From positions 1 through 55,241 of the forward strand of contig NZ_KB891227.1 of assembly GCF_000373365.1 (NCBI RefSeq): 55,241 nucleotides of DNA, given 5' to 3'. Made by a program: the position numbers and the translations under genes. The stretch is from Parafrankia discariae (GTDB lineage: Bacteria; Actinomycetota; Actinomycetes; Frankiales; Frankiaceae). The notes under the pieces are model-generated. The model searched no databases. It was given only the letters and a program-made list of their open reading frames with translations, and was not told the DNA's origin. Shown one piece after another: positions 17,911 to 38,585 of the stretch (the stretch's first letter is position 1; each line of letters opens with the position of its first letter).

Positions 17911-18486
17911 GTGGGAGTCAGCCTCAGCAAGGGCGGCAACGTGTCGCTGACCAAGGAGGCGCCCGGTCTCACGAACATCGTCGTCGGTCTCGGCTGGGAC
18001 GTGCGGACGACCACCGGCGCCGACTTCGACCTGGACGCCAGCGCGATCGCGTGCCGGGCGGACGGCAAGGTGGTCTCGGACGGGCACTTCATCTTCTTCA
18101 ACAACCTGAAGAGCCCGGAAGGCGCGATCGAGCACCAGGGCGACAACCTCACCGGCGAGGGCGAGGGCGACGACGAGAAGATCAACGTCGACCTGGCTGG
18201 CCTGCCGACCGAGATCGACAAGATCGTCTTTCCGGTCTCGATCTACGACGCGGACTCGCGCTCGCAGAGCTTCGGGCAGGTGCGCAACGCCTTCATCCGG
18301 GTGGTGAACGCCGCCGGCCAGACCGAGATCGCGCGCTACGACCTCACCGAGGACGCCTCGACCGAGACCGCCATGGTCTTCGGCGAGGTCTACCGGCACG
18401 GGGCGGAGTGGAAGTTCCGCGCGGTCGGCCAGGGCTACGCCTCCGGCCTCGCGGGAATCGCCCGTGACTACGGGGTCAACGTCTGA
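17911..18486 (+). CDS. terD: TerD-family tellurium-resistance/stress protein
   Basis: A 191-residue single TerD domain beginning [19 protein letters not shown], with the calcium-loop signature [31 protein letters not shown], the acidic [13 protein letters not shown] and the C-terminal [22 protein letters not shown]. Family members bind calcium and act in envelope or stress responses, with tellurite resistance only one outcome. The start is GTG 17911 with GGAGG five bases upstream; the open frame continues to 17686 but without family similarity. A strong terminator follows, so it is probably its own unit. It is the first member of the Ter group, ahead of the TerC-like gene and a second TerD. 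Confidence 0.95.
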
Positions 18487-18801
18487 CGGTTCGCGTCCAC
18501 GTGCACGACATCACCCCGGGACGGCTCAGTCCCGGGGTGATCCCCGGCGCGTTCGCGCCGATGGCGTCAGCCGGGTACGGACGGTGCGGAAGGTGGGCGC
18601 CTGTCGGGTTTCGGTCGTGCCGAGTGACCCGTACCTGGCTACGATTCGCTCGACCGCGGGACCTGCACCATCCGGTGAGCTGGACGCAGCGGTCGGCGAC
18701 AGTGTGTGACGTTGTGTGTGGTGGGTTCCGTACGGACCGCGGAGCCCGTTCGCAAACGCCTGTCGGGGCACTGTGAGCCGGTCCGGGAGGTGTTCCAAGG
18801 A
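18487..18801. other. 315-bp gap between terD and the TerC-like gene
   Basis: It holds the terD terminator (18510-18541). The remainder presumably carries the promoter of the TerC-like gene. An open frame runs through 18706-18801 but does not resemble coding sequence of that family. Confidence 0.5.
18510..18541 (+). terminator. terD terminator hairpin
   Basis: A perfect 12-bp stem (ATCACCCCGGGA / TCCCGGGGTGAT) with an 8-nt loop, 24 nt past the terD stop. There is no T tract, as is usual at this GC content. Confidence 0.85.
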
Positions 18802-20031
18802 GTGCACGCACTTCGGATTTTCGGCTGGTCCCTCGCCATAACGGTGATCGGGGTCGCGGCGGCCGGTGTGATCGGCGGCGGCGACGCCGCGGCGATCGTC
18901 GCCATCCTCGCCGTCCTCGAGATCAGCCTCTCGTTCGACAACGCGGTCATCAACGCGACGATCCTGCGCCGGATGAGCGAGTTCTGGCAGCGCATCTTCC
19001 TCAGCGTCGGCGTCATCATCGCCGTGTTCGGGATGCGGCTGCTGTTCCCGATCGTGATCGTGGCGCTGACGGCGCACCTCAGCCCGGTGGACGTCTTCGA
19101 CCTGGCGCTGAACAACGAAGAGGAGTACGGGGCGCGGCTGCACGACGCCCACCCCTCGATCGCCGCCTTCGGCGGGATCTTCCTCTTTATGATCTTCCTT
19201 GACTTCATGTTCGACCCGGAACGCGAGATCCAGTGGATCAAGCGTATCGAGGAGCCGTTCCGCCGGGCCGGCCAGCTCGACGTCGTGTCCGTCGTCCTGG
19301 GGCTCGTCGCGCTGCTGGTCGTGGGGGAGGCCTTCTCCGGAGACCACACCCAGCAGGTGCTGACGGCCGGGGTCGCGGGTCTCGCCACCTACCTGGGTGT
19401 GCGCGGGCTGGGTGAGTTCTTCGAAGCCCGCGGCATCGGCGCGGACGCGGACGAGGACGAGGACGACGCGGCTGACGCGGACAGGGCCGCGAGCGGGCCG
19501 GCCGGGGCCAACGGCTCGGCACCGGGGAAGGCCGCGGCACCCGGGCGCACCACGGGTACCTCCGACGTGGTCCTCGCGACCGGTCGGGCCGCCTTCTTCC
19601 TCTTCCTCTACCTTGAGGTGATCGACGCGTCGTTCTCGTTCGACGGCGTCGTCGGGGCGTTCGCCATCTCGCAGAACATCTTCATCATCGCGACCGGCCT
19701 GGGTATCGGCGCCATGTACATCAGGTCGACCACGGTGTACCTCGTCCGGCGCGGGACACTGGGCGAGTACATCTACCTGGAACACGGAGCGCACTACGCG
19801 ATCGGCGCGCTCGCCGTCATCCTGGCGGTCTCGATCGAGACCGAGGTTTCCGAGATCATCACCGGGCTGATCGGTGTGGCGTTCATCGGACTGGCCCTGG
19901 TGTCCTCGATCCGGCACCGCTCGAAGGAGCGGAAGACGAACCTCGCCGGCGGGGACGGCGCGGCCGCGGGCGACGACCCCGGTGGCGCCGGCGATCCCGA
20001 GGACGCGCCGGTCGTCGGGACCCGAAGCTGA
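18802..20031 (+). CDS. TerC-like integral membrane protein (DUF475)
   Basis: A 409-residue polytopic protein with about eight to nine hydrophobic helices. Two matching acidic motifs sit in helices, LEISLSFDNAVINAT near the N-terminus and LEVIDASFSFDGVVGAF in the second half, the hallmark of the TerC/DUF475 superfamily thought to move or sense divalent metals. A cytoplasmic loop (about 213-255) is rich in Asp/Ala/Gly, and the C-terminal tail is Gly/Asp-rich. The start is GTG 18802, with GGAGGT ten bases upstream; GTG 18706 is an upstream alternative. It lies between two TerD genes; TerC and TerD proteins are thought to act together at the membrane. An associated metal cannot be read from sequence. 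Confidence 0.88.
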   Translation: MHALRIFGWSLAITVIGVAAAGVIGGGDAAAIVAILAVLEISLSFDNAVINATILRRMSEFWQRIFLSVGVIIAVFGMRLLFPIVIVALTAHLSPVDVFDLALNNEEEYGARLHDAHPSIAAFGGIFLFMIFLDFMFDPEREIQWIKRIEEPFRRAGQLDVVSVVLGLVALLVVGEAFSGDHTQQVLTAGVAGLATYLGVRGLGEFFEARGIGADADEDEDDAADADRAASGPAGANGSAPGKAAAPGRTTGTSDVVLATGRAAFFLFLYLEVIDASFSFDGVVGAFAISQNIFIIATGLGIGAMYIRSTTVYLVRRGTLGEYIYLEHGAHYAIGALAVILAVSIETEVSEIITGLIGVAFIGLALVSSIRHRSKERKTNLAGGDGAAAGDDPGGAGDPEDAPVVGTRS

Positions 20032-20163
20032 TGTCGACCGCCGTCCACCTCGTCGCCCGCCGCGCCCCGGCCGCCTGACCAACCACTAACCACCCTCCAC
20101 CTCGCTGTCAACCCCACCGCTGTCACCCACCGCCATCACCCACCGACCGCAAGGGAGCGGAAC

Positions 20164-20847
20164 ATGGGCATCGACTACAGCAAGCGACCCGCCGCACCGG
20201 AGACGGGGTCGCCGGTGTCGCTGAGCAAGGTCACGCTGACCAAGTCCACGCCGACCGTGTCGCTGAGCAAGCAGGGTGGCGGCGGGCGGCTGCACGTCAA
20301 CCTGAACTGGAACCAGGGCGGGACCGGCGGCGCCGCCGGCGCCGGCAAGGGCGGCTTCCTCAAGCGGGTGCTCGGCGCCGGCGGCGGTGGCGTCGACCTC
20401 GACCTGGCCTGCCTGTTCCAGCTGGCGGACGGCCGTTCCGGCGTGGTCCAGGCGCTCGGCAACGCTTTCGGATCGTTCGACAACCCGCCGTACGTGAACC
20501 TCGACGCCGACGACCGGACCGGGGCCGCGACCGGCGGTGAGAACCTGTACGTCAACCTGGCCCGGATCAACGAGATCCGTCGCCTGCTGGTCTTCGCCTT
20601 CATCTACGAGGGCGTGGCGTCCTTCGACCAGGCCGACGCCGTGGTGACGCTCACCCCGGCGCAGGGCGCGCCGATCGAGGTCCGCCTCGACGAGCGGGCC
20701 GGAGGCGCCCGGATGTGCGCGATCGCGCTGCTGACGAACACCGGCGGTGACTTCTCCGTCAGCCGCGAGGTCCGGTACGTCAGCGGGCACCGGGACCTGG
20801 ACAAGGCCTACTCGTGGGGCCTGGACTGGACCGCTGGCCGCAAGTGA
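20164..20847 (+). CDS. Second TerD-family protein
   Basis: A 227-residue divergent TerD-domain protein. The opening MGIDYSKRP and the paired SLSKVTLTK / VSLSKQGGG motifs precede a Gly-rich loop with a basic GKGGFLKRVLG, then the core VDLDLACLFQLADG, DNPPYVNLDADDRTG and the C-terminal YSWGLDWTAGRK. The acidic positions of the calcium site are largely kept. ATG 20164 has AGGGAG seven bases upstream. The 132-bp gap before it is pyrimidine-rich (repeated CACC/ACC runs). Together with the TerC-like gene it probably forms one transcript. The two TerD copies differ enough to suggest separate partners. Confidence 0.9.
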   Translation: MGIDYSKRPAAPETGSPVSLSKVTLTKSTPTVSLSKQGGGGRLHVNLNWNQGGTGGAAGAGKGGFLKRVLGAGGGGVDLDLACLFQLADGRSGVVQALGNAFGSFDNPPYVNLDADDRTGAATGGENLYVNLARINEIRRLLVFAFIYEGVASFDQADAVVTLTPAQGAPIEVRLDERAGGARMCAIALLTNTGGDFSVSREVRYVSGHRDLDKAYSWGLDWTAGRK

Positions 20848-20867
20848 CCGGCGCCCGCGGGCCGGCC

Positions 20868-20910
20868 CGCTCCGCGGCCCGCGGCCCGGCCCGGCCCGGC
20901 CCGCGGAGCG
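20868..20910 (+). terminator. Hairpin after the second terD gene
   Basis: A 10-bp stem (CGCTCCGCGG / CCGCGGAGCG) closes a 23-nt loop made of GGCCC repeats, 21 nt past the stop codon. Confidence 0.6.
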
Positions 20911-21047
20911 TGGGGCGGACCCGGAGTTGAGTGGGACGCCGGAACCGGGCAGGCTGTCCGCAGTAGCCGGGAATCAGTCGTGACCAGTGCCCACGCACCG
21001 GGATGACCCGTCCGTTGCCGCCGCCTGACGGGGAGGGGCGTTACTCC

Positions 21048-23897
21048 ATGTTCCAGCCACGACGTTCCTCTCGGTCGGGCCGTTCCGGTGGCCCCGGTGC
21101 GGCGGGCGAGGGCCGGGACGAGGCCGGCGGTTATCGCTGGTTCGCCCCCGAGGACCTGCCCGGCGAGGAGCTGCCCGACACCCGGGAACCGAGCGGGGAC
21201 AACCGGGACGAGCCCCGGGACGAGCCCCGGGACGGCCGGGGGCCCCGGGACCGCCGGCAGGGCCCGGGCGAGTCCCGGTCAGCCGGGCCGGAGCGGGCGG
21301 CCGCCTGGTACGACACCGAGGACGGCACCGACCCGGGCGACGGGGAGTACTTCCGTCCCAGGGGCTACGTCTCCCCGGCGCCCGGCGCCCGGGAGGGACA
21401 CGAGCGTTCCGACTCCGGTGGCGCGGGCGCACCGGCCGGCGACGGCCGCGGATTCCCCCCGGACACCTACGAGCGTGCCGGGTACGGCCCACCGGACCGC
21501 GGCGAGGGTGATCCGGAGGCGGGCTACCGCCCCGTCTACCCGGACCCGGCCTACGACGAAGCCGGGTACGCCGGCGGCAGGTACGAGGAGAACACGTACG
21601 AGTCCGGGCCGGACGGCGAGGAGCGGTACCCGGACGACGGTTACCGACGGCCCGAGACCGCCGACGGTGAGTACGACCGTGGCCCCGGCTATCAGACCGG
21701 GCCGCGGTACGCGGGCGGTGACGGATTCGCCGACGCCCCCGACTTCCCCGGTGCGGCGGCCTTCGCCGGTGAGGTGGACTACGCCCCCGGCGGGGAGCCC
21801 CCGCTCCCGCGCCGGACCAGCCCCGCCGCCGCCCGCCGCTACCCCGACGACGGCGGCTACCGCGGCGAGCCCCGGTACGCCGGCGACGGCGGTGCCGCAC
21901 CGTACCCCGGCCCGCCGGGGTACGGCCGCGATCCGGAGTACGTCCCGGACGTCCCCGGCGCCCCGGAGTACGCCGCCGAGCCCGGCTACCCGGGCGGCGC
22001 GAGGTACGCCGGTGACGCCGACTACTCAGACGACTCCCGGTTCCCGGGCGACCCGCCGTTCGCCGGCGACTCCCGGTTCCCGGCGGACGCGCAGTACCCG
22101 AGAGGCGCGGCGTTCGCCGGTGACGAGGAGGAGTACCCGGGCGACGGCCCGCGAGCCGGTGGCGATGGCTACCCGGACGCCGTGCCGTACGCCCGAGCGT
22201 CCGACCGGTCCGACCGGTATGAGCGCGGGGCCGACTTCCCGGACGGCCCGGCGTACCGGCGCGACGCGGCCTACGCCGGTGACGCGGCCTACGCCGGTGA
22301 CGCCGAGTACACCAGCGGCACCGACTACACCGGTGAGGCCGACTATCCGACCGGTACCGGCTACGCCGGCGCCGGAGATCGCGCCGGCGGGCCCGGGTAC
22401 GGGACCGAGGAGGGGTGGGTGGGCCCACCCACCTCGTATCCCGCCGGCACCGATCTCGACGCCGCGCCGGACGACCCCGGCGACGTCTCCTACGGCGGCG
22501 CCGAGCTCCCGCCGATGCCCCCGCAGAAGATCGATTTCTTCCGGCGCTACGTGCGCCAGTCGACCGGGCCCACCGGCCGGCCGGACACCCCGGCCGGGAG
22601 CGGCGGGGACGCCCCGGCGGACCGTCCCGCCCGCCGGGACGAGTTCGACCTGCTCGACTACGAGATCCTCGGCGGGAGCGGGTCGGATCGGCAGGTCGGG
22701 GACGCCCCGGCCGGCCGCGTCGCCGACCAGCTCGACGACGCGGGGGACCGGATCGGGAACTACCCGGGTGCGGAACACGCCTTCGCCGCGCGGAACCGGG
22801 CGGACGTCCTCGTGCCGGGCGACCTCCCGGCACCTGGCGGCCCCCCGCTCGGCGACGTCGTGGCGGCCGACGGCGCCGTGTCCGGCGATGTGGTGCCGGG
22901 CGACATCGAGCCGGGCGATGTGGTGCCGGGCGATGTCGGGCTGGGGGGCGCCGCGGCGGGCCGGATCATGGCCGGCGAGGTCGTGGCGTCCGGCGAGCTG
23001 CTGGAGCCGGACGAGGTTGTCACCTCCGGTGATCTGTCCGCCTCCGACGACGTCGTGGCGTCCGACGACTTCCCGACAGGAGATGATCTCCTGGCCGGAG
23101 ACGCGGCACGCCCGGGCGGGTCGGTGCACGGGCCCGGTGCGCGGGCCCTGGGCGCACCACCGCCGGGCACCGGCCTCGGTTTCGAGCCGGGGCCGGTCGA
23201 CGGCCCCGGCGGGCCGCCCGACCCGGCCGACGATGACGTGATCGACGGTTCGGGCACGTCCGCCGCGCCGGCACGGACAGTTCCGGCGGGCGCCGTCTCG
23301 GTGGGTGCGGTCTCGGTGGGGGCCGGGATCACGCCGTCCGCGGCGGACCCGGTGGACCCGGTGGGCTCGGTGGTGGGAGACCTCGGCGGCCCGGCCGCGG
23401 CCGGCGCGGTCCCACCAAGCGAGAACCCGCCGGCCGCCGCGGTGCCGGCCGACCGGCAGGTGCTGGAACGCCTGGCCGACCGGGTGGACGAGCTCGTCCG
23501 CCTGCGTCGCCACGACGCCGAGCTGGTCGACCGCCTGCACGCGGAGAACGGCCGGCTGCGCGGCGGTGAGCTGACCGAGGCGATGACCCCGCTGCTGCGT
23601 GGACTGGTCCGCCTGTACGACCAGATGAGCAGCCTCGGCGCCGAGGACGCCCAGAGCGTCGCCGGGATCCTGCGCAAGCAGCTCCTGCAGATCCTGGACC
23701 TGGCCGCGGACGTCCGTCCCTACGCGCCGGCGGCCGGCGACCCGTTCGATCCGGGGCGGTCGCTGGGGGTCCGCCGGGTGGGCACCGACGATCCGGAGCT
23801 GGCGGGAACGGTCGCCCGGACGGTCCGTCCCGGCTTCGTCCGCGGGGAGTCCACGGTCGTCCGACCGGCCGAGACCGAGGTCTACCGGGCCTTCTGA
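21048..23897 (+). CDS. GrpE-like nucleotide exchange factor with ~800-residue disordered N-terminus
   Basis: A 949-residue protein. Residues 1-800 are low-complexity, acidic and Tyr/Gly/Pro/Asp-rich, with YAGDA/YPGD-type units and a GDVVP pentapeptide run. From about residue 802 it changes to a structured domain: a coiled coil (RLADRVDELVRLRRHDAELV, then DRLHAENGRLR), a helical stretch LRGLVRLYDQMSSLG, and a terminal beta-like part with FDPGRSLGVRRVGTDDPEL and VRPAETEVYRAF. That order and the final RPAxxxVY motif resemble GrpE, the exchange factor of Hsp70, and the next gene encodes an Hsp70. GrpE is normally about 200 residues. The start is ATG 21048 with GGGGAGGGG nine bases upstream; ATG 21003 has none. 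Confidence 0.75.
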   Translation: MFQPRRSSRSGRSGGPGAAGEGRDEAGGYRWFAPEDLPGEELPDTREPSGDNRDEPRDEPRDGRGPRDRRQGPGESRSAGPERAAAWYDTEDGTDPGDGEYFRPRGYVSPAPGAREGHERSDSGGAGAPAGDGRGFPPDTYERAGYGPPDRGEGDPEAGYRPVYPDPAYDEAGYAGGRYEENTYESGPDGEERYPDDGYRRPETADGEYDRGPGYQTGPRYAGGDGFADAPDFPGAAAFAGEVDYAPGGEPPLPRRTSPAAARRYPDDGGYRGEPRYAGDGGAAPYPGPPGYGRDPEYVPDVPGAPEYAAEPGYPGGARYAGDADYSDDSRFPGDPPFAGDSRFPADAQYPRGAAFAGDEEEYPGDGPRAGGDGYPDAVPYARASDRSDRYERGADFPDGPAYRRDAAYAGDAAYAGDAEYTSGTDYTGEADYPTGTGYAGAGDRAGGPGYGTEEGWVGPPTSYPAGTDLDAAPDDPGDVSYGGAELPPMPPQKIDFFRRYVRQSTGPTGRPDTPAGSGGDAPADRPARRDEFDLLDYEILGGSGSDRQVGDAPAGRVADQLDDAGDRIGNYPGAEHAFAARNRADVLVPGDLPAPGGPPLGDVVAADGAVSGDVVPGDIEPGDVVPGDVGLGGAAAGRIMAGEVVASGELLEPDEVVTSGDLSASDDVVASDDFPTGDDLLAGDAARPGGSVHGPGARALGAPPPGTGLGFEPGPVDGPGGPPDPADDDVIDGSGTSAAPARTVPAGAVSVGAVSVGAGITPSAADPVDPVGSVVGDLGGPAAAGAVPPSENPPAAAVPADRQVLERLADRVDELVRLRRHDAELVDRLHAENGRLRGGELTEAMTPLLRGLVRLYDQMSSLGAEDAQSVAGILRKQLLQILDLAADVRPYAPAAGDPFDPGRSLGVRRVGTDDPELAGTVARTVRPGFVRGESTVVRPAETEVYRAF
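22263..22298. repeat. Two perfect 18-bp tandem repeats in the GrpE-like gene
   Basis: The unit GACGCGGCCTACGCCGGT occurs twice in a row and encodes DAAYAG. It is the most exact of many degenerate YAGD-coding units across about 21.7-22.4 kb. Confidence 0.9.
22884..22943. repeat. Two 30-bp direct repeats encoding GDVVP units
   Basis: Two nearly identical 30-bp blocks encode a pentapeptide series (GDVVP, GDIEP, GDVVP, GDVGL) in the disordered part of the GrpE-like protein. Confidence 0.85.
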
Positions 23898-24155: not shown

Positions 24156-25883
24156 GTGGCAGGCACCAAGGTGTTCGGAATCGACCTGGGCACCACCTAC
24201 TCGTGTATCGCCCAGGTCGACGAGTACGGCCGCCCGGACGTGATCCGCAACATCGAGTCACAGCCGACGACCCCCTCGGTGGTCCTCTTCGACGGCGCGG
24301 CCGCCGGTGGCCCGGGCGGCGCGGAAACCGGCGCGGCGGGGCCGGCCGGCGCGGCCGGTGGTGGATCGACGTCGTTCGTGGTCGGCACCCAGGCCAAGCG
24401 CCAGGCGCGCATCCGCCCGGACGACGTCGCGCGGCTCGTCAAGCGGCACATGGGCGCCTCGGACTGGCGGTTCGTGGCGTACGACGTCGAGTACAGCGCC
24501 GCGTCGGTGTCCAGCCTGGTGCTCAAGGCGCTGGCCGCGGACGCGCAGCGGGCGACCGGGACACCGGTGACCGACGTGGTCATCACCGTCCCGGCCTACT
24601 TCGGCGACGAGGAGCGCAAGGCGACCAAGCTCGCCGGTGAGCTCGCCGGCCTCAACGTCGTGGACATCATCAACGAGCCGACCGCCGCCGCGTTCGCCTA
24701 CGGGTTCGCCCAGGACGGCAAGTCCACCTCGACGGTGCTCGTGTACGACCTCGGCGGCGGCACCTTCGACACGACGGTGATCCAGCTCAGCGAGAACGAC
24801 ATCACCGTGGTGGCCACCGACGGCGACCACGAGCTCGGCGGTGCCGACTGGGACAACGAGATCGTCCGCTACCTGGCGCAGAAGTTCGTCCAGGAGCAGC
24901 CGGACGCCGGTGACCCGCTCGACGACGTCCACGACGAGCAGGAGCTGCTCACCGCGGCCGAGGACGCCAAGCTGGCGCTGTCCGGGCGGGAGAGCGTCGA
25001 CGTCCTGGTGATGCACGGCGGTCGGCGGTCCAGCGTGCCGGTGACCCGCGCGACGCTGGAGGAGATCACCGGGCCGCTGTTGCAGCGCACGATCGACCTG
25101 ACCGGCTCGGTCCTGCAGCGGGCGAAGGAGAAGGGCGTCGACAAGATCGACCTCTGCCTTCTCGTCGGCGGGATGAGCAAGCTGCCCGCGGTCGCCCGCC
25201 GGCTGGGGGAGACCTTCGGGCTCACCTGCCGCCTGGTCGACCCGGATCTCGCCGTCGCAAAGGGCGCGGCGGTCTACGGGCAGAAGAAGGCCCTGGAGCG
25301 GGAGGTCCGCGCGGAGCTGGTGGCCAGCGGCCGGCTGCGCCCGGACCAGCAGCTCGACGCGGCCGCGACCGGGGACCTCGAACTCGCCGCCGCGGCGAGC
25401 GCGTCCGCCGCCGGGCTGACGACCTCGTCGGTGGTCGACCTCGTCCGCACCAGGGTGACGGATGTCACCTCCCGTGGTTTCGGGATCTTCGCCGAGGACC
25501 GCGGCAGCGCCGTGGCCGCGTTCCTCGCCCACCAGAACGACGCCCTGCCGATCCAGGTGAAGCGCACCTTCTACACGATCTCCGACGACCAGTCCGAGGT
25601 CGACATCCGGGTCTTCGAGCAGGGCACCGGCGTCGAGTCGACGCGCATCGAGGACAACAAGGTGATCGTCGCCGGTGCGATCAGCGGCATCCCGGCCGGC
25701 CATCCCCGCGGTACGCCGGTCGAGGTCACCTTCGAGATGGGCCGGGACCAGACCATCCAGGTCACCGCGACGCACGTGGGCGCCTCCGAGCCGCTCGTCC
25801 TGCGGGTCAAGGCCGGGGTGGGCAGCGAGAGCATGAGGACCGAGGAGTCGGCCAAGGTCAATCTCCTCAAGCAGCGGAACTGA
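24156..25883 (+). CDS. Hsp70-family chaperone lacking the C-terminal lid
   Basis: A 575-residue DnaK-like ATPase. The nucleotide-binding domain shows [10 protein letters not shown] (8-17), [11 protein letters not shown] (Asp198), [12 protein letters not shown] and [17 protein letters not shown] Gly/Ala-rich insertion of about 25 residues (47-72) interrupts lobe I. An Ala-rich stretch precedes the beta substrate-binding domain, which begins around [15 protein letters not shown] and contains [20 protein letters not shown]. The protein stops soon after the beta domain (KVNLLKQRN), so the alpha-helical lid and disordered tail of DnaK are missing. GTG 24156 has AAGGGAA about ten bases upstream. 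It follows the GrpE-like gene and precedes the J-like/zinc-ribbon gene. The housekeeping dnaK is presumably elsewhere. Confidence 0.93.
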
Positions 25884-26039: not shown

Positions 26040-29000
26040 GTGAGCGCGGCGTTCGACGGCAGCGGCTACCGGCGACGGGTCCTGGCGCCGCTGCGGGCCC
26101 GGACCCCGGTGGACACGACCGACCCCTACCTGGTCGCGGACCTCGATCCGCTGGTGGAGCACACCGACTCCGAGGTCGCCGCGCAGCTCGCCCGGGTGAT
26201 GGCGTTCCTGCAGCGCGAGCGCAACTCGGCGAAGTACGCCGCGCTGGCCACCGAACTGGTGCGCCGCCGCGGCGAGTGGGAGACGCCGCTGCTCGACGGT
26301 GACGCCCGGGCCCGGCTGCGGCACGCCGTCCTGGACGCCCGGCGCAACGGCGACGCCGAGCGGCTCGCCAAGGTCGACGGCTACCTCGTCACACTGCGTG
26401 ATCGTTTCGGGGGCATCCCGGCCTCCCGGGTCGCCGGCCTGCGCCGTCTCGCGGCCGCGGCCGGGGTGACCGGGGCCGAGTTCGACGCCCGGCTGGGCCG
26501 CGAGGTCATCATCGCGGACGGCGGCGGCGCCGACGTCGAGGCGCTCGCCCCCGAGGTGCGCAGCCAGATCCGGCAGCGGCTGGAGGACCTGCGCGTCCTG
26601 CGCGGCGGCGACCGGGCCGGCACCGCCTCGCTGTGGGACTTCCTCGGCCTGCAGCCCGACGCCGGGCCGGACCGCATCCGCTCCGCCTGGGAGGCGGTCG
26701 CCGCCGGCAACGCCCGCCGCCCGCACGACCGCGAGAAGACGCTGACGGCCGACCTGCTGGCCATGGTGCGCTCCCGGCTGATCGAGGGCGACCCGGCCGC
26801 CTACACCGCGGGTCTGCTCGCCGACGTCGCCGACGAGCTCCGCCCCATCGTCGAGGAACACGTCGTGCTCGACGGCGAGCTCACGGCGGTCGCCTACGAG
26901 GGACTCGTCCGGGCCGCCCTGGCCGCCGGTCGCGGGCTGGGCACCGAGCAGGCGAAGACGGCCATCCTCGGCATCGCCCGCAACCTGGGCGCCGCGGTCA
27001 GCACCGGCGGCGCCGTCGACTACGTGCTGTGCCCCGGCTGTGGACGTCCCGAGCCGGTCGGCGGCTCGCGGACCTGCCGGTACTGCGACGCGGGGCTCTA
27101 CACCACCTGCCCCGGGTGCACCTCGCTCACCGAGGCCGCCGCTGTGACCTGCCGGCGCTGCGGGTACAGCCTGCGCCAGGTCCGGGCCGCCGGTGACGCG
27201 CTCGCCGCCGTGCGCCAGGCACTCGAGGCCGGTCGCCCCCGCGAGGCCAGCGACGGCCTCGCCCGGGTGCGCGCGACCGTCGCGGCCGCCGGCTCCGGAG
27301 CCGGCAACGGGACGGCGGGGGCCGCCGACGAGCTGGAGTCGCTGGTGCGGGCCGCGCTCGGCGCCGCCGAGGCGGGCTGGCGGGCACTGGCGGAGGAACG
27401 CTCCACCCTGCGCTCCGACGCCGCGGTCGAACGCGCCCGCTGGCTCGTCGCCCGCGCGGCCGACGTCCCCGGCCCGGACGGCCGCCCGCCGGCCGAGGTG
27501 CTCGGCGAGCTGACCGCGCAGCAGGCCGTCATCCGGCGCCGGATCGAGGCCGCCCGCGGCCTGTCGCCCGAGCAGCAGGAGTCCGCGCTGGTCGCCGTGC
27601 TCGCCACCGCGGTCGACAGCGCGGACGCGCTGCGTGCCCTCGCCACGCTGCCGCTGCAGCCACCGACCGACCTGACCTCCGTGCTGGCCGACGACGCGGT
27701 CCTGCTCCGCTGGCGGCCGTCCGCCTCGGCCGGTCCGGTCACCTACCGGGTGGAACGGGTCGCCGTCGATCCCGGCTCCGGGCAGCTCACCCGGCGTGGA
27801 CTGGGCATCACCAGCTCCACCGAGCTCGCCGACGCGGGCGCCCCACCCTGGACACCGGTCCGGCACGAGGTGACCGCGCTCTCCGGCGAGCGGCGCTCCC
27901 GGCCGGTCAGCACCGCGCCGATGATCGCAGTGCGGGACGTCGCAGACCTGCGGGCCGAGGCCACCCCGACCGGGGTCCGCCTGACATGGCGGCCGAGCGG
28001 GCCGTCCGACACCGTGACGATCGAGCGCACGGTCGACCCCGACTCGGCGGTCTCCGCCCCGCCCCGCCGGGCCCGGGTCACCGGCGGAAGCTTCCTCGAC
28101 TCCGACGTGCTGCCCGGGGTGGGCTACCGCTACCGCGCGTTCGTCGAGTACACCGACGTCGACGGCAGCGCCGCCCGCACCTCGGGGTCGCGGGCCGAGT
28201 TCGGCCTGCTCACCCGGCCGCGACCGGTCACGGACCTGGTCGTCGGCGCCGAGGACGGGCAGGTCGCCCTGCGTTGGACGCCGCGCTCCGGCGTGGAGGT
28301 GCGGGTCTACGCGACGGCCGTCCCGCCGCCCGGGGGCACCGTCGGCACCGCTCCCCACCCGGGCGGGCGGCCCGGTAGGTCCGACATCGGGGCCGGGGCC
28401 ACCGGGGCCGGGGCCGGCGGTGGCGGGGCTTCCGGCGTCGGGGTGCTCGGCGCCGGCGCGGTCTCGGTCGGGGCGGGGGAGCCCGGGCGGCCGCCCGGGC
28501 CGAGCTCCGGCCCGCTGGCACTGCTGGGCGGGGAGGGGACCGAGATCCCACTCGCCGCGCTGACACCACCGCTGCGACTGGTCGGCGCGAGCCGACAGGG
28601 CCACCTGCGGGACGCGGCGGTCCCGCTCGCCCCCGGCACCGGCGAGTTGATCTACACGCCGGTCACCGTCGTCGGTGGTCTCGGTGTCCTCGGCCGCTCG
28701 GCGCCGCACCGCTTCCCGGTGGTGACACACGACGTCTCCGAGTTCACCGCCGGCATCGCCGACCTTCCGACCGGCCGCGCCGACCTTCCGACCCGCACCA
28801 CCGACCTTCCGACCGGCATCGCGGATTTTCCGACCGGCCGCGCCGACTTCCCGACCGGCACCGCCGACTTCCCGATCGGTGGCACCGGCCTACCGACCGG
28901 CACTGCCGACTTCCCCACCGGTAACGCCGGTAACGGCCGCAGCAACGGGAACCACGGCCCCGCCAGTGCCGGTGCCGGTGCCGGTGCCGGTGCCGGTGCC

Positions 29001-30822: not shown

Positions 30823-31355
30823 GCCTTGCCGGGATGATCCTCGACCGGGTCGGGCCCGGGGACGGTGAGCCCCGCGGTCTCGGGCTGACGGCCGCGAGCT
30901 GACCGTGTCCCGGCTCCGCTGTGCCCCGGTACTGCCCCCGGCGCTGCCGTGCTCCGTCACCGCTATGCCCCGGTACCGAGCCCCGGTACCGGCCGGCTCC
31001 GGCGGGGCCCCGGCCGCTACCCCGCCCCTCGCCGTCCCCGCCGCTGCCTCGGAACCGCTGCCGCTGCTCCCCGCCCCCGCCCCGTCCCGATGTCGCTGTC
31101 GCTGTCGTCCTCCCGTCACCGCAGCCGTCCCCCGCTGCCGCCGTCCTCGTGCGTTCCGGACGAACCGTGAACTATTTCGCGGTTCGCTCGCCGTTGTGAG
31201 CAGGATCGCCAAAGGTGATCGGTTTGTTGTGCATCCGTTACTTTGGCTGTCGTGTTACGAGTGGTATTCGCGGTACCGGCACTTTTCTCCTATAGCGCCG
31301 TGTGTTTGCGGGGTAGTACCACCCCCGTTCTGGTTAGTCCCTTACGATGGTTTCA

Positions 31356-31609: not shown

Positions 31610-33439
31610 ATGGCCTCGACACCCGGCGGCCGACCGACCCCTCAGGTCGACCGCATCTCCCGGTTCGGCTTCGGCCGGAATCCCGCGGGCGCCCCGGCGT
31701 CCCGGCCGCCGCGGCCGCGCCGCCGGCACCGCTTCGGCCGTGGGCCGCGGCTGGGTCTGGCCGCCGGCTTCGTGCTGGCGCTGTCCCTGCCGCTGGTGGC
31801 GCCGGCCGGTGCCGCGCCACCGGCCGCCACGCCGACATCCTCCCCCACCGTGGGCACGGCCCCGGAGGCTGACGGAACCTCGTCGCCCGCGCCTTCCTCG
31901 TCGGCCGGGGATGTCGCCGACCAGCAGGTTCCGGTCGCCGGCCTGACCACCGGCCCGGCGACCGCCGGGCAGTCGAAGCTGACTCTCGTCCTGTTCGACA
32001 GTGACATCGTGCTGGTCGGCGGGCGCGGGTTCGGTGCCGGCAAGGATGTGGCGGTCACCGCCGCGACCTCCGACCTCGGTGGCTCCGCGACCGCCCGGGC
32101 CGGCGCGGACGGCCGGTTCATCCTCGGCTTCCAGGTGCCGCTCGGCTTCACCGGCCGGGTCACCGTGACGGCGAAGCAGGAGTCGGTGGAGGCCAGCGGC
32201 ACGCTCGACGTCGTCGACGCGGGCACGCCGGGCCTGGCGAGCAGGGCGGCCGGCGATGCCGAGGTCCCCGCACCCACGCCGACGGCGACGCCCGTCCCGG
32301 CCCCCGCGGCCACTCCGGCGCCGACGACCTCAGCGCCGACGACTTCGGAGCCCACGGTCTCCGGGCCCACCAGCTCGGAGCCGACGGGCACCGCGCCGGC
32401 CACCACCCCGAGTACCGCCCCGAGTACCGCCCCGGGCACCGGCCGGCGGACCTCGCCGGCGCCGACCGCCGTACCCGCGCCCACGGCCGCGCCGTCGGCA
32501 GGCAGCGGGACGGGCGCGGGGACCGGCACCGGCACCACCACCGGTGGCAACGGCCGGCTCTCCGGCCTGCCCTGGATGTCCGGCGTCTACCCGTCACACG
32601 TCCTGTCGCAGGTCCTGGCCTTCGGGACGTGGCGCGGGCGCCCGAACGACGTGGCGCACGTGTTCACCATCCGGACCCAGGGCTGGAACGCGATGGTCGA
32701 GCCGCGTTGGCCGCTGGACCTGTACAAGGCCTTCCCGGGCAAGCTGATCATCAGCCAGCCGACCTACCCGAAGGGCCAGGGCAACAATGCCGCCTGTGCC
32801 CAGGGCGCGTATGACAGCTACTGGAAGACGTTCGGCACGTTCCTCAAGAACAACGGCCGCGCCGATTCAATCGTCCGCATCGGGTGGGAATTCAACGGGA
32901 CCTTCATGTACTGGCACGCGGACGCGGCCGGCACCCAGTTCCGTGACTGCTTCCGCAAGATCTCGACCGCCATCCGTTCGACGGACCCCGAAGTGAAGAT
33001 CGACTGGACGTTCAACGCGCACGCCTCGCCGGTTCCCAACGGGGGAACCCCGTGGGCGGCCTACCCCGGTGACGAGTACGTCGACTACGTCGGCATCGAC
33101 TCCTACGACTGGTACCCGCCGTCGCGGGACGAGGCCACCTGGAAGAAGCAGTGCGACGACCCGAACGGCCTGTGCTACCTGCTCGAGTTCGCCCGCCAGC
33201 ACGGCAAGAAGGTGGGAGTGGGCGAATGGGGCGTGTCCTCGTGCAGCCGCAACGGCGGCGGTGACAACCCCTTCTACATCCAGAAGATGTTCGACACGTT
33301 CACGCAGTACGCGGACGTGATGGCGTACGAGTCGTACTTCCACGACGCCGCGCCCGGGAACGTCTGCTCGACCATCATGAACGGCGGCCAGAACCCGAAG
33401 GCCTCCGCCCTGTACAAGAAGCTGTTCGGCTCGGTCTGA
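31610..33439 (+). CDS. Secreted GH26-like glycoside hydrolase
   Basis: A 609-residue exported protein. A long basic N-region (Arg-rich, 1-47) leads to a hydrophobic core (48-65) and a likely cleavage after AGA near 67-69. Then come a beta-rich module (about 100-205, KLTLVLFDSDIVLVGGRGFG), a Thr/Pro/Ser linker (about 215-315) and a clan-A barrel. Catalytic candidates are Glu427 in RIGWEFNGTFMYW (acid/base) and Glu539 in VGVGEWGVSS (nucleophile); VDYVGIDSYDWYP is also typical. GH26 enzymes cut beta-mannans or beta-1,3:1,4 glucans; the substrate here is unknown. The start is ATG 31610 with GAAAGG 12 bases upstream; the frame runs back to 30905 but that part is non-coding in character. Confidence 0.85.
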   Translation: MASTPGGRPTPQVDRISRFGFGRNPAGAPASRPPRPRRRHRFGRGPRLGLAAGFVLALSLPLVAPAGAAPPAATPTSSPTVGTAPEADGTSSPAPSSSAGDVADQQVPVAGLTTGPATAGQSKLTLVLFDSDIVLVGGRGFGAGKDVAVTAATSDLGGSATARAGADGRFILGFQVPLGFTGRVTVTAKQESVEASGTLDVVDAGTPGLASRAAGDAEVPAPTPTATPVPAPAATPAPTTSAPTTSEPTVSGPTSSEPTGTAPATTPSTAPSTAPGTGRRTSPAPTAVPAPTAAPSAGSGTGAGTGTGTTTGGNGRLSGLPWMSGVYPSHVLSQVLAFGTWRGRPNDVAHVFTIRTQGWNAMVEPRWPLDLYKAFPGKLIISQPTYPKGQGNNAACAQGAYDSYWKTFGTFLKNNGRADSIVRIGWEFNGTFMYWHADAAGTQFRDCFRKISTAIRSTDPEVKIDWTFNAHASPVPNGGTPWAAYPGDEYVDYVGIDSYDWYPPSRDEATWKKQCDDPNGLCYLLEFARQHGKKVGVGEWGVSSCSRNGGGDNPFYIQKMFDTFTQYADVMAYESYFHDAAPGNVCSTIMNGGQNPKASALYKKLFGSV

Positions 33440-33791
33440 GTGACCCGGTCCGAACGGCGGTCCTGACGACGGTCCCGACAGCGGCCCCAACGGCAGGCCG
33501 TCCGGCACACATGTGATCGTTCGTTTCGGTGAACGGGCCGTCACCCCCGCGTCGCGAGGGTGGCGGCCCGTTCGCCTGCCGACCAACACCTGTGCACGGA
33601 GGTGTCGTGTGCCGTTTCGTGTCGAACTCCCGAAGTGGCGGGGTAGCGTCAGCCCGGGCACCATGTCCAAGCCCGCCCTGTGACCTGCGCGGTTGCGATC
33701 CCTGCTTTCGAGGGCTCGCGGGATGGCTCTCGCAGGCCCGCCGGATCGTCCGTCCCCGGATCGTCGGATCGTCTCGACAGGAGCGCGCCGC
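33440..33791. other. 352-bp gap between the GH26-like gene and the metabolite operon
   Basis: It contains the terminator at 33531-33573 and, just before the next gene, three copies of GGATCGTC (within 33740-33775) that may be regulatory for the operon. No gene is seen. Confidence 0.5.
33531..33573 (+). terminator. Terminator of the GH26-like gene
   Basis: A 16-bp stem with one G-U pair: GAACGGGCCG plus TCACCC pair with GGGTGG plus CGGCCCGTTC around an 11-nt loop, 92 nt past the stop. Confidence 0.8.
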
Positions 33792-34985
33792 TTGCGTCAC
33801 TTCAGCTTCCTGGACGGCCAGGCCGCCAGGACCCTGTTCCACCGAGCTCCGGAAGAGATCACGGCCGGCGGTGACCGACGGCTCGTCGCGACCGCGCTCG
33901 GCGCCACCCTGTACGCCCCCGGCACCCGGCCGCGGTTGGCCTCGGACGTCCGCCGTCAGGTGACCGCCGGGGTGACCTCGATGGTCCTCTGCCTGGAGGA
34001 CGCCATCGCCGATCACGAGGTGCTCGGGGCCGAGTCGAACGTGGCCGCGGCGCTCGCCGACCTGGGGGAGGACCCGCCGGTCTGCGGCGAGGGTCTGCCC
34101 CTGCTGTTCGTCCGGGTGCGCGCCGTCGCGCAGATCCCGGCACTGCTGGCCCGGCTGGGCGGCCCCGCGCGCTCGCTGCTCGCCGGGTTCGTCCTGCCGA
34201 AGTTCGGCGAGGAGAGCGGCGAGGCGGCGCTCGAGGCGGTCCTGCGCGGTTCCGACACGCTCGGCCGGCTGCTGTGGGCGATGCCCGTCCTGGAGAGCCC
34301 GCAGGTGATCTACCGCGAGACCAGGATCGAGGCGTTGACGGCCGTGCGCCGCCTCGTCGACAAGCACGCCGACCATGTGCTGGCCGTCCGGCTGGGCGCC
34401 ACCGACCTGTCGGGCGTGTTCGGCCTGCGTCGCGACCGGGACCTGACCATCTACGACATCGCGGTGGTGCGTGACTGCATCGCCGACATCGTGAACATCT
34501 GCGCCCGCGGTGGTGATCATGTCGTCACCGGCCCGGTGTGGGAGTACTTCGCCCAGCCCGAGCGCCTGTTCGTGAGTTCCCTGCGGGTGACGCCGTTCGA
34601 GGAGGCCGACCTCGTCGACGGCAGCGAGCGCGGCGCGCGGATCCGTTCCGAGCTTGTCTCGGCCGACCTCGACCGGCTCATCCGGGAGGTCGTCCTCGAC
34701 AAGGCCAACGGGCTGATCGGCAAGACGGTGATCCACCCGAGCCACGTGCCGGCCGTCCACGCCCTGTATGTCGTGACCCAGGAGGAGTACGAGGACGCGG
34801 AGGCGGTCCTCGCGGGGGACGCGGGCGGCGTCCGGCCCAGCAGCTACGCGAACAAGATGAACGAGCTGCGTCCGCACCGGCCGTGGGCGCAGGCCGTGCG
34901 ACGGCGGGCGCGGGCCTTCGGCGTGCTGCGCGAGGGCCTCACCTTCGTCGACGTGCTGGCCGCGACGCAGGACGCGTTGCGGTGA
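33792..34985 (+). CDS. HpcH/HpaI (CitE-like) TIM-barrel C-C bond lyase of Ter clusters
   Basis: A 397-residue protein of the CitE/HpcH aldolase superfamily, closest in character to the 'C-C bond lyase of the TIM-barrel fold' family found with Ter genes. Visible segments are GATLYAPGTRPRLA, SMVLCLEDAIADHEV (acidic metal ligands), LLWAMPVLESPQVIYRE, and GLIGKTVIHPSHVPAVHAL near the C-terminus. It is predicted to make or break a carbon-carbon bond on a keto-acid or acyl substrate. The start is TTG 33792 with AGGAG eight bases upstream; upstream in-frame starts have no ribosome site. It is first of four genes joined by 4-nt GTGA overlaps. Confidence 0.85.
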   Translation: MRHFSFLDGQAARTLFHRAPEEITAGGDRRLVATALGATLYAPGTRPRLASDVRRQVTAGVTSMVLCLEDAIADHEVLGAESNVAAALADLGEDPPVCGEGLPLLFVRVRAVAQIPALLARLGGPARSLLAGFVLPKFGEESGEAALEAVLRGSDTLGRLLWAMPVLESPQVIYRETRIEALTAVRRLVDKHADHVLAVRLGATDLSGVFGLRRDRDLTIYDIAVVRDCIADIVNICARGGDHVVTGPVWEYFAQPERLFVSSLRVTPFEEADLVDGSERGARIRSELVSADLDRLIREVVLDKANGLIGKTVIHPSHVPAVHALYVVTQEEYEDAEAVLAGDAGGVRPSSYANKMNELRPHRPWAQAVRRRARAFGVLREGLTFVDVLAATQDALR

Positions 34986-36493
34986 CCGACCAGGATCGGA
35001 TCCTCGACCAGGACCGGCTCCGGGACCCCGACTGGCTGTGGGAGGAGCTCGGGCTGGGAATCGAGGTGCACGGCGGAGAACCGCCCGTGACCGCGGAAGC
35101 GCCTGCGCCCGGAGAACCGCCTGCGCCCGCGAAAGTGATCGCGCCCGCGGAAGCGGTCGAGCTGCGTCGGCTGGTCGGGCTGGCGCTGCGCCGCAACCCG
35201 CTGCGCGCGCACCTGCTGGTCAGCCGGGTCCTCGGCAAGCATCTGCCGGTGCCACCGGCGACCGCGCTGGACGCGGCCGCCCGCCTGTCCGAACGGGTGC
35301 GGGCCCTGCCGACCCCCGCCCGGTGGACCGGCCCCGGGCCGGGAGCGGCCGAGGTCCCGCTCGTCATCGGGTACTGCGAGACCGCCACGGCGCTCGGGCA
35401 CGCCGTCGCCGACGGCCTGCCGAACAGCCACTACCTGCACACGACGCGGCGCCGGGTACCGGGCAGCGTCCCGGTCCTGGAGTTCGTGGAGTCGCACTCG
35501 CACGCCACCCACCACTGGCTCATGCCCGCCGATCCCGCGGTGCTGGAGACCCCCGGCCGGCTGCTGCTCGTCGACGACGAGCTGTCGACCGGACGGACGG
35601 CGCTGGGCACCATCCGCATCCTGCACGCCTTCGCCCCCCGAACGGACTATGCCGTGGCGGCGCTCGTCGACGCCCGGCCACCGGCCGCCCGGGCCGCCTT
35701 CGACGCGCTCGCCGCCGAACTCGGCATCCGCCTGGACGTCGTCTCCCTCGTCGCGGCGACCGTCACGGTGCCCGCGGACGTGACCGCCCGGGCCAGCCGG
35801 ATCCGTGCCGCCTTCGGTACCCCGGTCCCTGCTGATGCCCCGGTCTCCGCCGGTGCCCCGGCTTCCACCGAGGCCCCAATCACGGGCGACGGCGCCGGCG
35901 GCAGCGTCGGCAGCGGCGGCAGCGGCGCCGGCGGCGGCGCGGCGCACCGGGTCACCCGGGTGGCGGTGGACTGGCCGGCGGGCCTGCCGGACGGGGCGCG
36001 CCACGGCTGGTCCCCGGCCGCCCGGGAACGCCTCACCGACGCGGTCCCCGCCGTGGCGAAGGACGTCCTGGCCGGCCTGCCCGACCCCGCGCGTGACGGG
36101 GACATCCTGGTCCTGGGTACTGAGGAGTTGATGTACGTGCCGATGCGGCTGGCGGACGGCCTGGCGGAACTGACCGGGCGCCGGGTGGTCTACCAGTCGA
36201 CGACCCGGTCCCCGGTCCATCCGCTCGACGTCGACGGGTACGCCATCCGGGCGGCGCTGACCTTCCCGGCGCCCGACGGCCCCGAACGGGTCAGCCACGT
36301 GTACAACGTGACACCGGGCCGCTACGGCGACATCGTGCTCGTCGTGGACTCCGGGATGGACGGCCGCGGGCCGGTCCCCGACGGCCCCGACCTGGACGGC
36401 CTGCTCACCGAGCTGCGTCGCTGCGCGGACGTCACCGTCGTCACCATCCCCTGCCACGTGCCGGCGGCGCGCGGCGCCGAGGAGGCCCGGTGA
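34982..36493 (+). CDS. Phosphoribosyltransferase-TRSP domain protein
   Basis: A 503-residue protein. A Pro/Ala-rich N-terminal spacer is followed by a phosphoribosyltransferase domain (about 60-275) with the PRPP motif LLLVDDELSTGRTALGT (Asp198/Asp199) and IGYCETATALGHAVAD. A Gly/Ser linker (about 280-320) leads to a C-terminal TRSP-type domain (about 320-500) with ILVLGTEELMYVPMRLADGL and the TRSP-like YQSTTRSPVHPL that names the family. It is predicted to attach a ribose-phosphate to a base-like compound. GTG 34982 overlaps the upstream stop by 4 nt, as does its own stop with the next GTG, so all four genes should be made in fixed proportion. Confidence 0.87.
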   Translation: MTDQDRILDQDRLRDPDWLWEELGLGIEVHGGEPPVTAEAPAPGEPPAPAKVIAPAEAVELRRLVGLALRRNPLRAHLLVSRVLGKHLPVPPATALDAAARLSERVRALPTPARWTGPGPGAAEVPLVIGYCETATALGHAVADGLPNSHYLHTTRRRVPGSVPVLEFVESHSHATHHWLMPADPAVLETPGRLLLVDDELSTGRTALGTIRILHAFAPRTDYAVAALVDARPPAARAAFDALAAELGIRLDVVSLVAATVTVPADVTARASRIRAAFGTPVPADAPVSAGAPASTEAPITGDGAGGSVGSGGSGAGGGAAHRVTRVAVDWPAGLPDGARHGWSPAARERLTDAVPAVAKDVLAGLPDPARDGDILVLGTEELMYVPMRLADGLAELTGRRVVYQSTTRSPVHPLDVDGYAIRAALTFPAPDGPERVSHVYNVTPGRYGDIVLVVDSGMDGRGPVPDGPDLDGLLTELRRCADVTVVTIPCHVPAARGAEEAR

Positions 36494-37659
36494 GCGCGGT
36501 GCGGTCCGCCGAGACCGGCGGGCGGGCGCTGATCGGCTCCGGCTCCTACCTGCCCGAGGACGTCACCTTCCTGCTCACCGACCTCAGCGCGGCGGACCTC
36601 GAACGGCCGACGGAGGACCGCGAGGAGGGCTTCCAGTCCGGCCGGCACTACTCCGAGGACCTGCCGATCGAGTACCAGCCCGACGCCGCCTACCTGCGGA
36701 TCTACCACCAGGCGCTGGAGCGGTCCGCACGGCGGGTGGCATTGGCGACCGGGATCGTCGCCGAGCTCGTCCGGCACACCAAGCCCGCGCCGGTGATCGC
36801 CTCGATCGCCCGCGCGGGCACGCCGATCGGCATCCTGATGCGCCGCTGGTACGCCTTCCGGCACGGCCTGGACGTCCCGCACTACGCGATCTCGGTCATC
36901 AAGGACCGCGGCGTCGACATGAACGCCCTGCGCCACATCACCGACCGCCACGACCGCGCGGCCGTCCAGTTCGTCGACGGCTGGACCGGCAAGGGCGTGA
37001 TGACCCGGGTGCTGGCCGAGGCGGTCCGCGGCCTCGGCGTCGACGACACCCTGGCGGTGCTCGCCGACCCGGCCCGCTGCGTGCCGCTGTTCGGCACCCG
37101 CGACGACTTCCTCATCCCCAGCGCCTGCCTGAACTCCACGGTCAGCGGGCTGGTCAGCCGGACGGTGCTCAACGCCGAGCACATCGGCCCGGACGACTTC
37201 CACGGCGCGAAGTTCTACCGGGAGCTCCTCCCGCACGACCTCTCCCAGCACTTCATCGACACGATCGTCGACCGGTTCGACGAGGTCGCCGACGAGGTCG
37301 AGGCGGCCTGGCCCCGGCTGTGGGCGGCCGACCGGACGCCGACCTGGGAGGGCTGGGCCGCCGTCGAGCGCATCGCCGAGCGGTTCGACATCCCGGATGT
37401 GATCATGGTGAAGCCCGGGGTGGGCGAGGCCACCCGGGTGCTGCTGCGCCGGGTGCCGTGGCGCATCCTCGTCGCCCCCGACCGGCTGGACGAGCTCGCG
37501 CACGTGCTGGCCCTGGCCGAGGCGCGCGGGGTGCCGGTGGAGGAGATGGCCGGCCTGCCCTTCTCCTGCGTCGGTCTGGTGCGGCCCGTCCGCACCGGGG
37601 ACGGCGGGAAGCCGGTGTTCCACACCCCGGCGGCGCGCTGGCGCCCGGAGACACCGTGA
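36490..37659 (+). CDS. StiP-domain (PRTase_1) protein with C-terminal PELOTA domain
   Basis: A 389-residue protein. The N-terminal part has the family opening SGSYLPEDVTFLLTDL, the segment PVIASIARAGTPIGILMRRW and FVDGWTGKGVMTRVL, which resemble a phosphoribosyltransferase; databases also label this domain 'cysteine protease StiP', and the true chemistry is unsettled. The C-terminal 75 or so residues (VGEATRVLLRRVPWRILVAP onward) look like a PELOTA RNA-binding-type domain. In Ter-linked clusters this protein accompanies the PRTase-TRSP protein. The GTG start overlaps the previous stop and its stop overlaps the next GTG. Confidence 0.87.
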   Translation: MSAVRSAETGGRALIGSGSYLPEDVTFLLTDLSAADLERPTEDREEGFQSGRHYSEDLPIEYQPDAAYLRIYHQALERSARRVALATGIVAELVRHTKPAPVIASIARAGTPIGILMRRWYAFRHGLDVPHYAISVIKDRGVDMNALRHITDRHDRAAVQFVDGWTGKGVMTRVLAEAVRGLGVDDTLAVLADPARCVPLFGTRDDFLIPSACLNSTVSGLVSRTVLNAEHIGPDDFHGAKFYRELLPHDLSQHFIDTIVDRFDEVADEVEAAWPRLWAADRTPTWEGWAAVERIAERFDIPDVIMVKPGVGEATRVLLRRVPWRILVAPDRLDELAHVLALAEARGVPVEEMAGLPFSCVGLVRPVRTGDGGKPVFHTPAARWRPETP

Positions 37660-38585
37660 CCTCCCCGCCCCCGGGCACGCCCCCGGAAACGCCGCCGCGG
37701 CCCGCGCCGGCCGTGCCGAGCAGGTCCGCGCCGGCCGCGCCGGCCGTGTCGGGACGGCCCGCGCCGGCCGGCCCGGACCTGCTGGCCTGCGACCTCGACC
37801 AGACGCTGATCTTCGCCCGGAAGTCCTTCCGGCTGGCCCCCGGCACGTCCGAGCCGGCGGTGACCCTGGTCGAACGGATCGACGGCGTCCCGTCCGCCTA
37901 CTCCACCACCCGCACGCTCGACCTCCTCGCCCGCCTGCACCGGACGGCGGTCTTCGTCCCGGTCACCACGCGGACCCTCGCCCAGTACCGGCGGATCGAC
38001 CTCGGCGTGCGTCCCGCGTTCGCCATCGCGGCCAACGGCGGGCACCTGCTCGTCGACGGCGAGCCCGACCCCGCCTGGGCGGAGCAGGTGGCGGCCCGCC
38101 TCGCGGGCACCTGCGCGCCGCTGGCGGAGATGGAGGCCCTGGCCGCCCGGCTCGACGCCGCCGGCTGGGCCCGCGTCATCCGGGTGGCGGACGGCCTGTT
38201 CGTCTACCTGGTCGCGCACAGCCGGGAGGCGATCCCCGACCTGTCGGACGTCGCCGCCGAGGTGGCGGCGGCGGGGTGGTCGCTGTCCACCCAGGGCCGC
38301 AAGGTCTACCTGGTCCCGGCCGCCCTCACCAAGCAGGCCGCCGTCGCGGAGGTCGCCCGCCGGGCCGGCGCGTCCCGGGTGCTGGCCGCCGGCGACTCCG
38401 TCCTCGACGCGCCGATGCTCGCCGCCGCCGACCTGGCCGTCCGGCCGGCACACGGGGAGTTGCACGAGCAGGGCTGGCAGGCCCCGAACCTCACGGTGAC
38501 CACCGCCGCCGGAGTCCTCGCCGCCGAGGAACTGCTGACCCTCTTCCGCGCGTGGTCACCCCCCCCGCCCGAAGCGGCCCGGTGA
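37656..38585 (+). CDS. HAD-family hydrolase
   Basis: A 309-residue Cof-type HAD phosphatase. After a 40-residue Pro/Ala-rich tail come motif I LLACDLDQTLIF (nucleophile Asp46, Asp48), motif II in VFVPVTTRTLAQY, and motif IV AAGDSVLDAPMLAAADLAV with a Lys (TKQAAV) before it. It should remove a phosphate from the nucleotide-like product of the operon. The GTG start overlaps the StiP stop. It is the last gene and faces the convergent deaminase with 57 bp between. An ATP-grasp enzyme, usual in such modules, is not found in the window. Confidence 0.87.
   Translation: MTSPPPGTPPETPPRPAPAVPSRSAPAAPAVSGRPAPAGPDLLACDLDQTLIFARKSFRLAPGTSEPAVTLVERIDGVPSAYSTTRTLDLLARLHRTAVFVPVTTRTLAQYRRIDLGVRPAFAIAANGGHLLVDGEPDPAWAEQVAARLAGTCAPLAEMEALAARLDAAGWARVIRVADGLFVYLVAHSREAIPDLSDVAAEVAAAGWSLSTQGRKVYLVPAALTKQAAVAEVARRAGASRVLAAGDSVLDAPMLAAADLAVRPAHGELHEQGWQAPNLTVTTAAGVLAAEELLTLFRAWSPPPPEAAR

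Follow-up and report, generated by a model that had tools for sequence, protein, structure and literature searches.

The genome of Parafrankia discariae raises the question of why genes for a chaperone set should stand inside a Ter locus, and whether the two belong together. The window analysed here is the whole stretch of 55,241 nucleotides at positions 1 to 55,241 of contig NZ_KB891227.1 (assembly GCF_000373365.1; source genome 7.9 Mb). The block examined in it, 17911–38585 on the plus strand, encodes a TerD protein (TerD1), a DUF475/TerC-family membrane protein, a divergent second TerD-like protein (TerD2), a GrpE, an Hsp70 and a predicted J-domain protein (together the trio), a secreted protein resembling glycoside hydrolase family 26 (GH26), and a module of C-C bond lyase, PRTase-TRSP, StiP-PELOTA and HAD phosphatase-like genes. 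A first, sequence-only reading had placed the genes from TerD to HAD on this one strand, an outline that Pfam, alignments and models confirm, and had proposed that a dedicated chaperone machine has been added to the Ter system or stands next to it. The gene order in Frankiaceae, a relative in the uninserted state, linkage in other genera and co-occurrence with the lyase uphold that proposal. We hold with high confidence that the linkage of the trio with Ter genes is a real, recurrent association, and we lean cautiously towards the explanation that the Ter locus has acquired an Hsp70 machine dedicated to Ter assemblies.

According to parts of two papers (PMC7824862, PMC8115787), the Ter system consists of signal enzymes, TerD-type sensors and a TerC membrane part, and the lyase/PRTase-TRSP/StiP-PELOTA/HAD module is described there as well. 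The window is like this system in having all four genes of the module together with TerD and a TerC-type membrane protein, and unlike it, as found in five Streptomyces-like loci, in having GrpE, Hsp70 and J, often with GH26, between TerD2 and the lyase. The account of the Ter system in those papers reportedly goes back to Anantharaman et al. 2012, and a nucleoside-like product of the module is only proposed in the literature. Literature text searches, which did not cover the neighbourhoods in the 2012 Ter paper, found no description of a link between an Hsp70 trio and Ter genes.

Linkage of the trio and Ter genes

In a sample of the class that included 29 Frankiaceae (the source genome counted), a strong J match was found in all 29 and a strong lyase match in 28, the exception being G254. 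The J and lyase genes are 3.5–7.8 kb apart on a single contig in 19 of the 29 and on separate contigs in nine; in eight of these nine the lyase starts no more than 4.3 kb from a contig end. Stretches were fetched from 13 Frankiaceae relatives, nine of which span the block, and the full gene order is kept in all nine (in G023, HAD falls beyond the end of the stretch). The secreted glycosidase of the sequence-only reading is recognised by Pfam as GH26, but the gene was found in eight relatives and not in G010, G012 or G021, three of the 11 whose locus would show it, so it is an accessory and not a constant part of the block.

One relative, G011, has TerD1, DUF475, TerD2 and lyase contiguous on a short contig (L089), and GrpE, Hsp70 and J on another contig beside unrelated genes (L052). 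On the J tree the G011 trio branches closest to the Ter-linked trios (Shimodaira-Hasegawa-like approximate likelihood ratio test support 100). Because TerD2 and lyase are adjacent in G011 while its trio stands elsewhere, a ready-made trio was probably inserted between these two genes after G011 split off.

Outside Frankiaceae, the class sample gave a strong J match in only two genomes, after two weak, zinc-ribbon-only matches had been dropped from the 33 obtained. A scan of named genomes returned 121 relatives, and the counts that follow cover the best 80 of these 121 (loci L137–L216), which were read with GrpE138, Hsp70, J138, Ter, lyase and StiP queries. Of the 80 loci, 24 have Ter genes no more than about 10 kb from the trio, and a further 12 are undecided as the contig ends early. 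The linked trios belong to Gordonia (7/8), Pseudonocardia (11/13, the other two undecided), Geodermatophilaceae (5/7) and one metagenome-assembled genome; 13 of the 24 have the lyase or StiP module, one has DUF475 and TerD, and ten have TerD-type genes only. Trios lacking nearby Ter genes were seen in Nocardia (24/29, five undecided), Tsukamurella, Nocardioides, Virgisporangium and the second Frankia copies.

The linked loci differ in arrangement. In Pseudonocardia, GrpE faces Hsp70-J-DUF475-TerD and the module is convergent; the Gordonia order is Hsp70-J-TerD2; in Geodermatophilus, TerD2 and Hsp70 are divergently oriented, and beyond them stand AIM24 genes, DUF475 and the module. Genes that we take to be of the AIM24 family stand beside Ter genes and the trio in both Geodermatophilus and Gordonia (L200, L205, L083). 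On a quick J tree the Ter-linked state changes at least seven times, gain and loss not being distinguishable on it, and the random chance of a trio lying within 10 kb of Ter genes is about 0.4–0.8% per genome. Since relatives throughout Frankiaceae share the gene order and the trio adjoins Ter genes in several other genera, the block is more than a chance neighbourhood, and the two sets are thus together well beyond this single strain.

The lyase also follows the trio at the level of whole genomes. It was present (E 1e-60 or better) in 50 of the 50 trio genomes outside Frankiaceae that were tested among the named loci, with one partial match. Within the class sample it was found in 30 of 31 trio genomes, compared with 41 of 264 trio-less ones. 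In the family of Gordonia, 13 of 201 genomes have the trio and 101 have the lyase, and all 13 trio genomes are among the lyase carriers (hypergeometric probability 9e-5).

Divergence of the trio from ordinary chaperones

A search of the source genome returned three high-scoring DnaKs (797–819 bits), each with a GrpE nearby on the same contig. The trio Hsp70 is a divergent copy, and the trio is distinct from these three ordinary DnaK/GrpE pairs. Aligned to the three DnaKs, it retains the ATPase motifs and the beta substrate domain. The helical lid is missing in all ten intact trio Hsp70s of an 11-member alignment, the frame-broken L191 having been left out. R167 of Escherichia coli DnaK docks the aspartate of the HPD motif of J domains; at the equivalent position 93 of 93 trio Hsp70s (16 from Frankiaceae, one chance match of another protein having been dropped, and 77 from the named loci) have D or G, whereas all three DnaKs of the genome have R. 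The LLLD linker is likewise missing from all 93 and present in all three DnaKs. The same genome also contains a separate cluster (L237, on C124), in which a dynamin-like GTPase/GrpE-like pair accompanies three genes that each encode an Hsp70 domain with a WD40-like tail.

The J protein shows the matching loss. No HPD stands at the loop between helices II and III in any of the 90 rows, out of 92 aligned, that reach it, and two rows of the J alignment have an HPD elsewhere in the sequence. The model of the protein (predicted local distance difference test, pLDDT, 84.4; predicted template modelling score, pTM, 0.49) aligns over residues 195–262 to J domains with Z up to 7.8 over 68 residues, and most of the first 29 rows are J domains; a profile search gave DNAJC3 (E 0.0038). 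The predicted fold of 26040–30419 thus makes a good, if not final, case for a J-like protein. BamD chains head the Foldseek list for the model (E 0.18–0.8), which we read as helical-repeat noise. The sequence-only reading had called this a J-like zinc protein, and the fold and four CxxC motifs at residues 331–374 agree with it, but HPD is absent and the zinc-ribbon match, like that to fn3, is under its Pfam cut-off. Among the copies given, Pfam zinc-ribbon matches were obtained with those of the window and G011 and not with the Pseudonocardia, Gordonia, Nocardia and second-Frankia ones. An apparent covariation by eye between the J loop and position 167 of Hsp70 (ELPPGR with G..S; RPDR and RRPHDR with D) was not used as evidence, because the G..S rows are one clade.

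The gene read as GrpE-like was identified correctly by profile and fold, but the domain is confined to the last ~145 of its 964 residues. PF01025 is matched by 25 of the 26 members of the GrpE alignment (best 6.1e-15), the window copy having no Pfam match; a profile built on the trio GrpE retrieves Thermus GrpE (1.4e-9), and the predicted fold (pLDDT 82.7) aligns to GrpE chains with Z 8.4–10.2. By profile and model, then, the C-terminal part of 21003–23897 is a GrpE. Its G/A/P/D-rich N-terminal extension (21003–23460) has 333–988 residues in relatives compared with 45 in G011, and this extension and the G/P-rich tail of the J protein (28300–30150) are possible scaffold or condensate-forming regions. 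As modelled, the trio resembles canonical DnaK/DnaJ/GrpE in its ATP-binding motifs, GrpE fold and probable J fold, and differs from it in lacking the HPD at the J loop, the R167 equivalent, the LLLD linker and the lid.

A proposed role and its alternatives

From the loss of the contact residues we suggest that the J protein and Hsp70 would work only with each other, as a private pair kept apart from the cell's general DnaK/DnaJ system. The J protein, with its putative zinc ribbons and fn3 repeats in Frankiaceae, would bring the client, the lidless Hsp70 would bind it loosely in an ATP-gated manner, and GrpE would reset the Hsp70. The most likely client would be a TerD/TerD2/DUF475 assembly at the membrane, to be built or dismantled when the lyase, PRTase and HAD enzymes make the proposed nucleoside-like signal; both the clients and the stress role of the trio are what we infer. 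In a bolder and rather doubtful form of this idea, the trio would be an orthogonal Hsp70 system in which the HPD-arginine contact has been swapped for a private one, the lidless, insulated chaperone would remodel TerD/TerC membrane assemblies in response to the Ter nucleoside-like signal, and the zinc ribbons of the J protein, in the Frankia branch, would act as a metal sensor. Ter systems occur widely, and a chaperone that recurrently joins them is a handle on their mechanism, as knowing its clients would show which assemblies Ter proteins form. If J and Hsp70 do pair without HPD and the docking arginine, they would also offer nature's own trial of the extent to which an Hsp70 cycle tolerates rewiring.

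A different origin for the trio is suggested by the GAP1-N2 conflict systems. In the part of PMC7159879 that describes them, about 14% of GAP1-N2 neighbourhoods, mostly from actinobacteria and firmicutes, contain Hsp70, GrpE and FNIII-DnaJ fusion proteins, and TerD is listed as a possible nucleotide-derivative binder. The trio resembles this second theme in joining Hsp70, GrpE and a J/fn3 protein, the fn3 match of the window copy being under the Pfam cut-off. It could accordingly be an offshoot of such systems, acting in immunity or stress-triggered assembly, with the Ter locus merely a signal partner or neighbour. The partner itself is out of place: no GAP1-N2 protein was found in the window genome, and in the eight of 37 searched trio genomes that have one, none was found at the trio as far as the places are readable (it is on a different contig in one genome and 1.7 Mb away in a second, reading of the trio locus excludes it there in three, and in the last three it is at least 78 kb away if on the same contig). 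We consider this origin unlikely. Much the same is to be said of an old synteny without function, in which one insertion beside the glgE cluster in the Frankiaceae ancestor was kept by vertical descent. GlgE adjoins the block in all eight spanning relatives (of nine) whose stretch covers that side, and Frankiaceae keep the entire region, from glgE on its left side to acs/glgP on its right; much of the block's order conservation is therefore background, and G011 would show the state before insertion. Such a history is at odds with Ter linkage in different orders in Pseudonocardia, Gordonia and Geodermatophilaceae, with the repeated changes of state on the J tree, with the lyase in every non-Frankiaceae trio genome tested and with the low chance of proximity, and we regard it as improbable. 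That the trio serves other clients, such as secreted or envelope enzymes, GH26 or the neighbouring glycogen enzymes, is brought to mind by GH26 directly after J and by GlgE and GlgP on either side; GH26 was not found in some of the relatives that would show it, the loci inspected in other genera showed no glg genes beside the trio, and this explanation is very improbable.

Several observations weigh against a dedicated Ter chaperone. As many as 44 of the 80 named loci have a trio without nearby Ter genes, and Frankia has a second Hsp70-J pair between dapB-like and hisS-like genes near pnp, again without Ter genes; the trio therefore has a life of its own. Conversely, the five Streptomyces-like loci have a Ter operon without the trio, TerD2 and lyase being separated only by a TerD on the opposite strand, and 41 trio-less genomes of the class sample carry the lyase. 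The co-occurrence counts are inflated by ancestry; that in the family of Gordonia spans four genera and has a genus-level p of 0.10. As to the J protein, its Z is middling, and values below 8 can reflect a common structural arrangement. Every Foldseek E value for its model is above 0.1 (J chains 1.1 or worse), and a J domain may be inactive when it lacks HPD. The J-Hsp70 contacts on which insulation is argued are those known from DnaK-DnaJ work. Searches for heat-shock operators gave a single HAIR-like match with 3 mismatches at 44361, which is at chance level, and no CIRCE element. With these points counted, the uptake of a dedicated Hsp70 machine by the Ter locus is still the explanation that we mildly favour.

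Gene layout, flanks and upstream signals

The genes of the block are given in Table 1. Neighbouring genes from lyase to HAD overlap by 1–4 bases and are for this reason probably one operon. The genes from TerD to J are spaced by 132–258 bases, and a gap of ~1.2 kb separates J from GH26; a single operon over 21 kb is not borne out, only the last four genes being tightly coupled.

Table 1 Genes of the block and the evidence for their identity
Feature	Position	Strand	Evidence
TerD	17911..18486	+	PF02342 5.1e-86
DUF475/TerC-family membrane protein	18706..20031	+	PF04332 1.2e-115 (387 bits); PF03741 8.7e-19 (68 bits; cut-off 27.8)
Divergent TerD-like protein (TerD2)	20164..20847	+	weak TerD matches in homologues; adjoins trio in Frankiaceae and Gordonia
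GrpE with ~820-residue G/A/P/D-rich N-terminal extension	21003..23897	+	GrpE domain ~23463-23894
Divergent Hsp70 without lid, LLLD linker and J-docking arginine	24156..25883	+	PF00012 2.3e-92; alignment
J-domain protein	26040..30419	+	helical N-terminus, predicted non-HPD J domain, four CxxC, fn3-like, G/P-rich tail
Secreted GH26-like protein, accessory	31610..33439	+	PF02156 1.8e-5
C-C bond lyase	33693..34985 (alternative ATG 33723)	+	PF15617 1.7e-120
PRTase_2-TRSP	34982..36493	+	PF15609 1.3e-63; PF12500 1.8e-37; GTG at 34982 overlaps lyase end
StiP-PELOTA	36490..37659	+	PF11202 2.5e-99; PF15608 2.6e-32
HAD-IIB phosphatase-like	37656..38585	+	TIGR01484 1.2e-5, under its cut-off; HAD motifs by eye

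Two names needed adjustment. The gene called TerC-like does match TerC, but more strongly DUF475. For the supposed second TerD, three of three homologues match TerD weakly and under the cut-off (E 0.0012–0.0062), but the window copy has no Pfam match. The Pfam matches of lyase, PRTase-TRSP and StiP-PELOTA are all above cut-off, and HAD has matches only under cut-off. The open frame of the GH26-like gene starts at 30905, and the ATG at 31610 precedes a signal-peptide-like stretch.

The block is flanked by 7–17004 (GlgE/TreS/maltokinase/GlgB) and 42810–47728 (glycogen phosphorylase/GlgX-like). The left flank, on the minus strand, presumably holds glgB, maltokinase-like, treS-like and glgE-like genes, to judge by family features, and the right flank acetyl-CoA-synthetase-like and glycogen-phosphorylase-like genes. 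A nucleoside/guanine-deaminase-like gene at 38643–39209 on the minus strand is convergent with the HAD gene. It has a fragment match in G003 and none in the stretches from other relatives, and for this reason probably lies outside the lyase/PRTase/StiP/HAD module.

Searches for sigma-70 promoters and terminators gave none, or 4 compared with 3.4 in shuffles, and the stress-sigma pattern GGAAC/T-spacer-GTT was found neither in nine stretches upstream of TerD1 nor before six other genes of the window. By eye, the sequence CAGTA[GC]GCTGC, which contains a TAGGCT/TACGCT box, stands upstream of TerD (17911) in nine of nine relatives, and this box is a possible -10 element.

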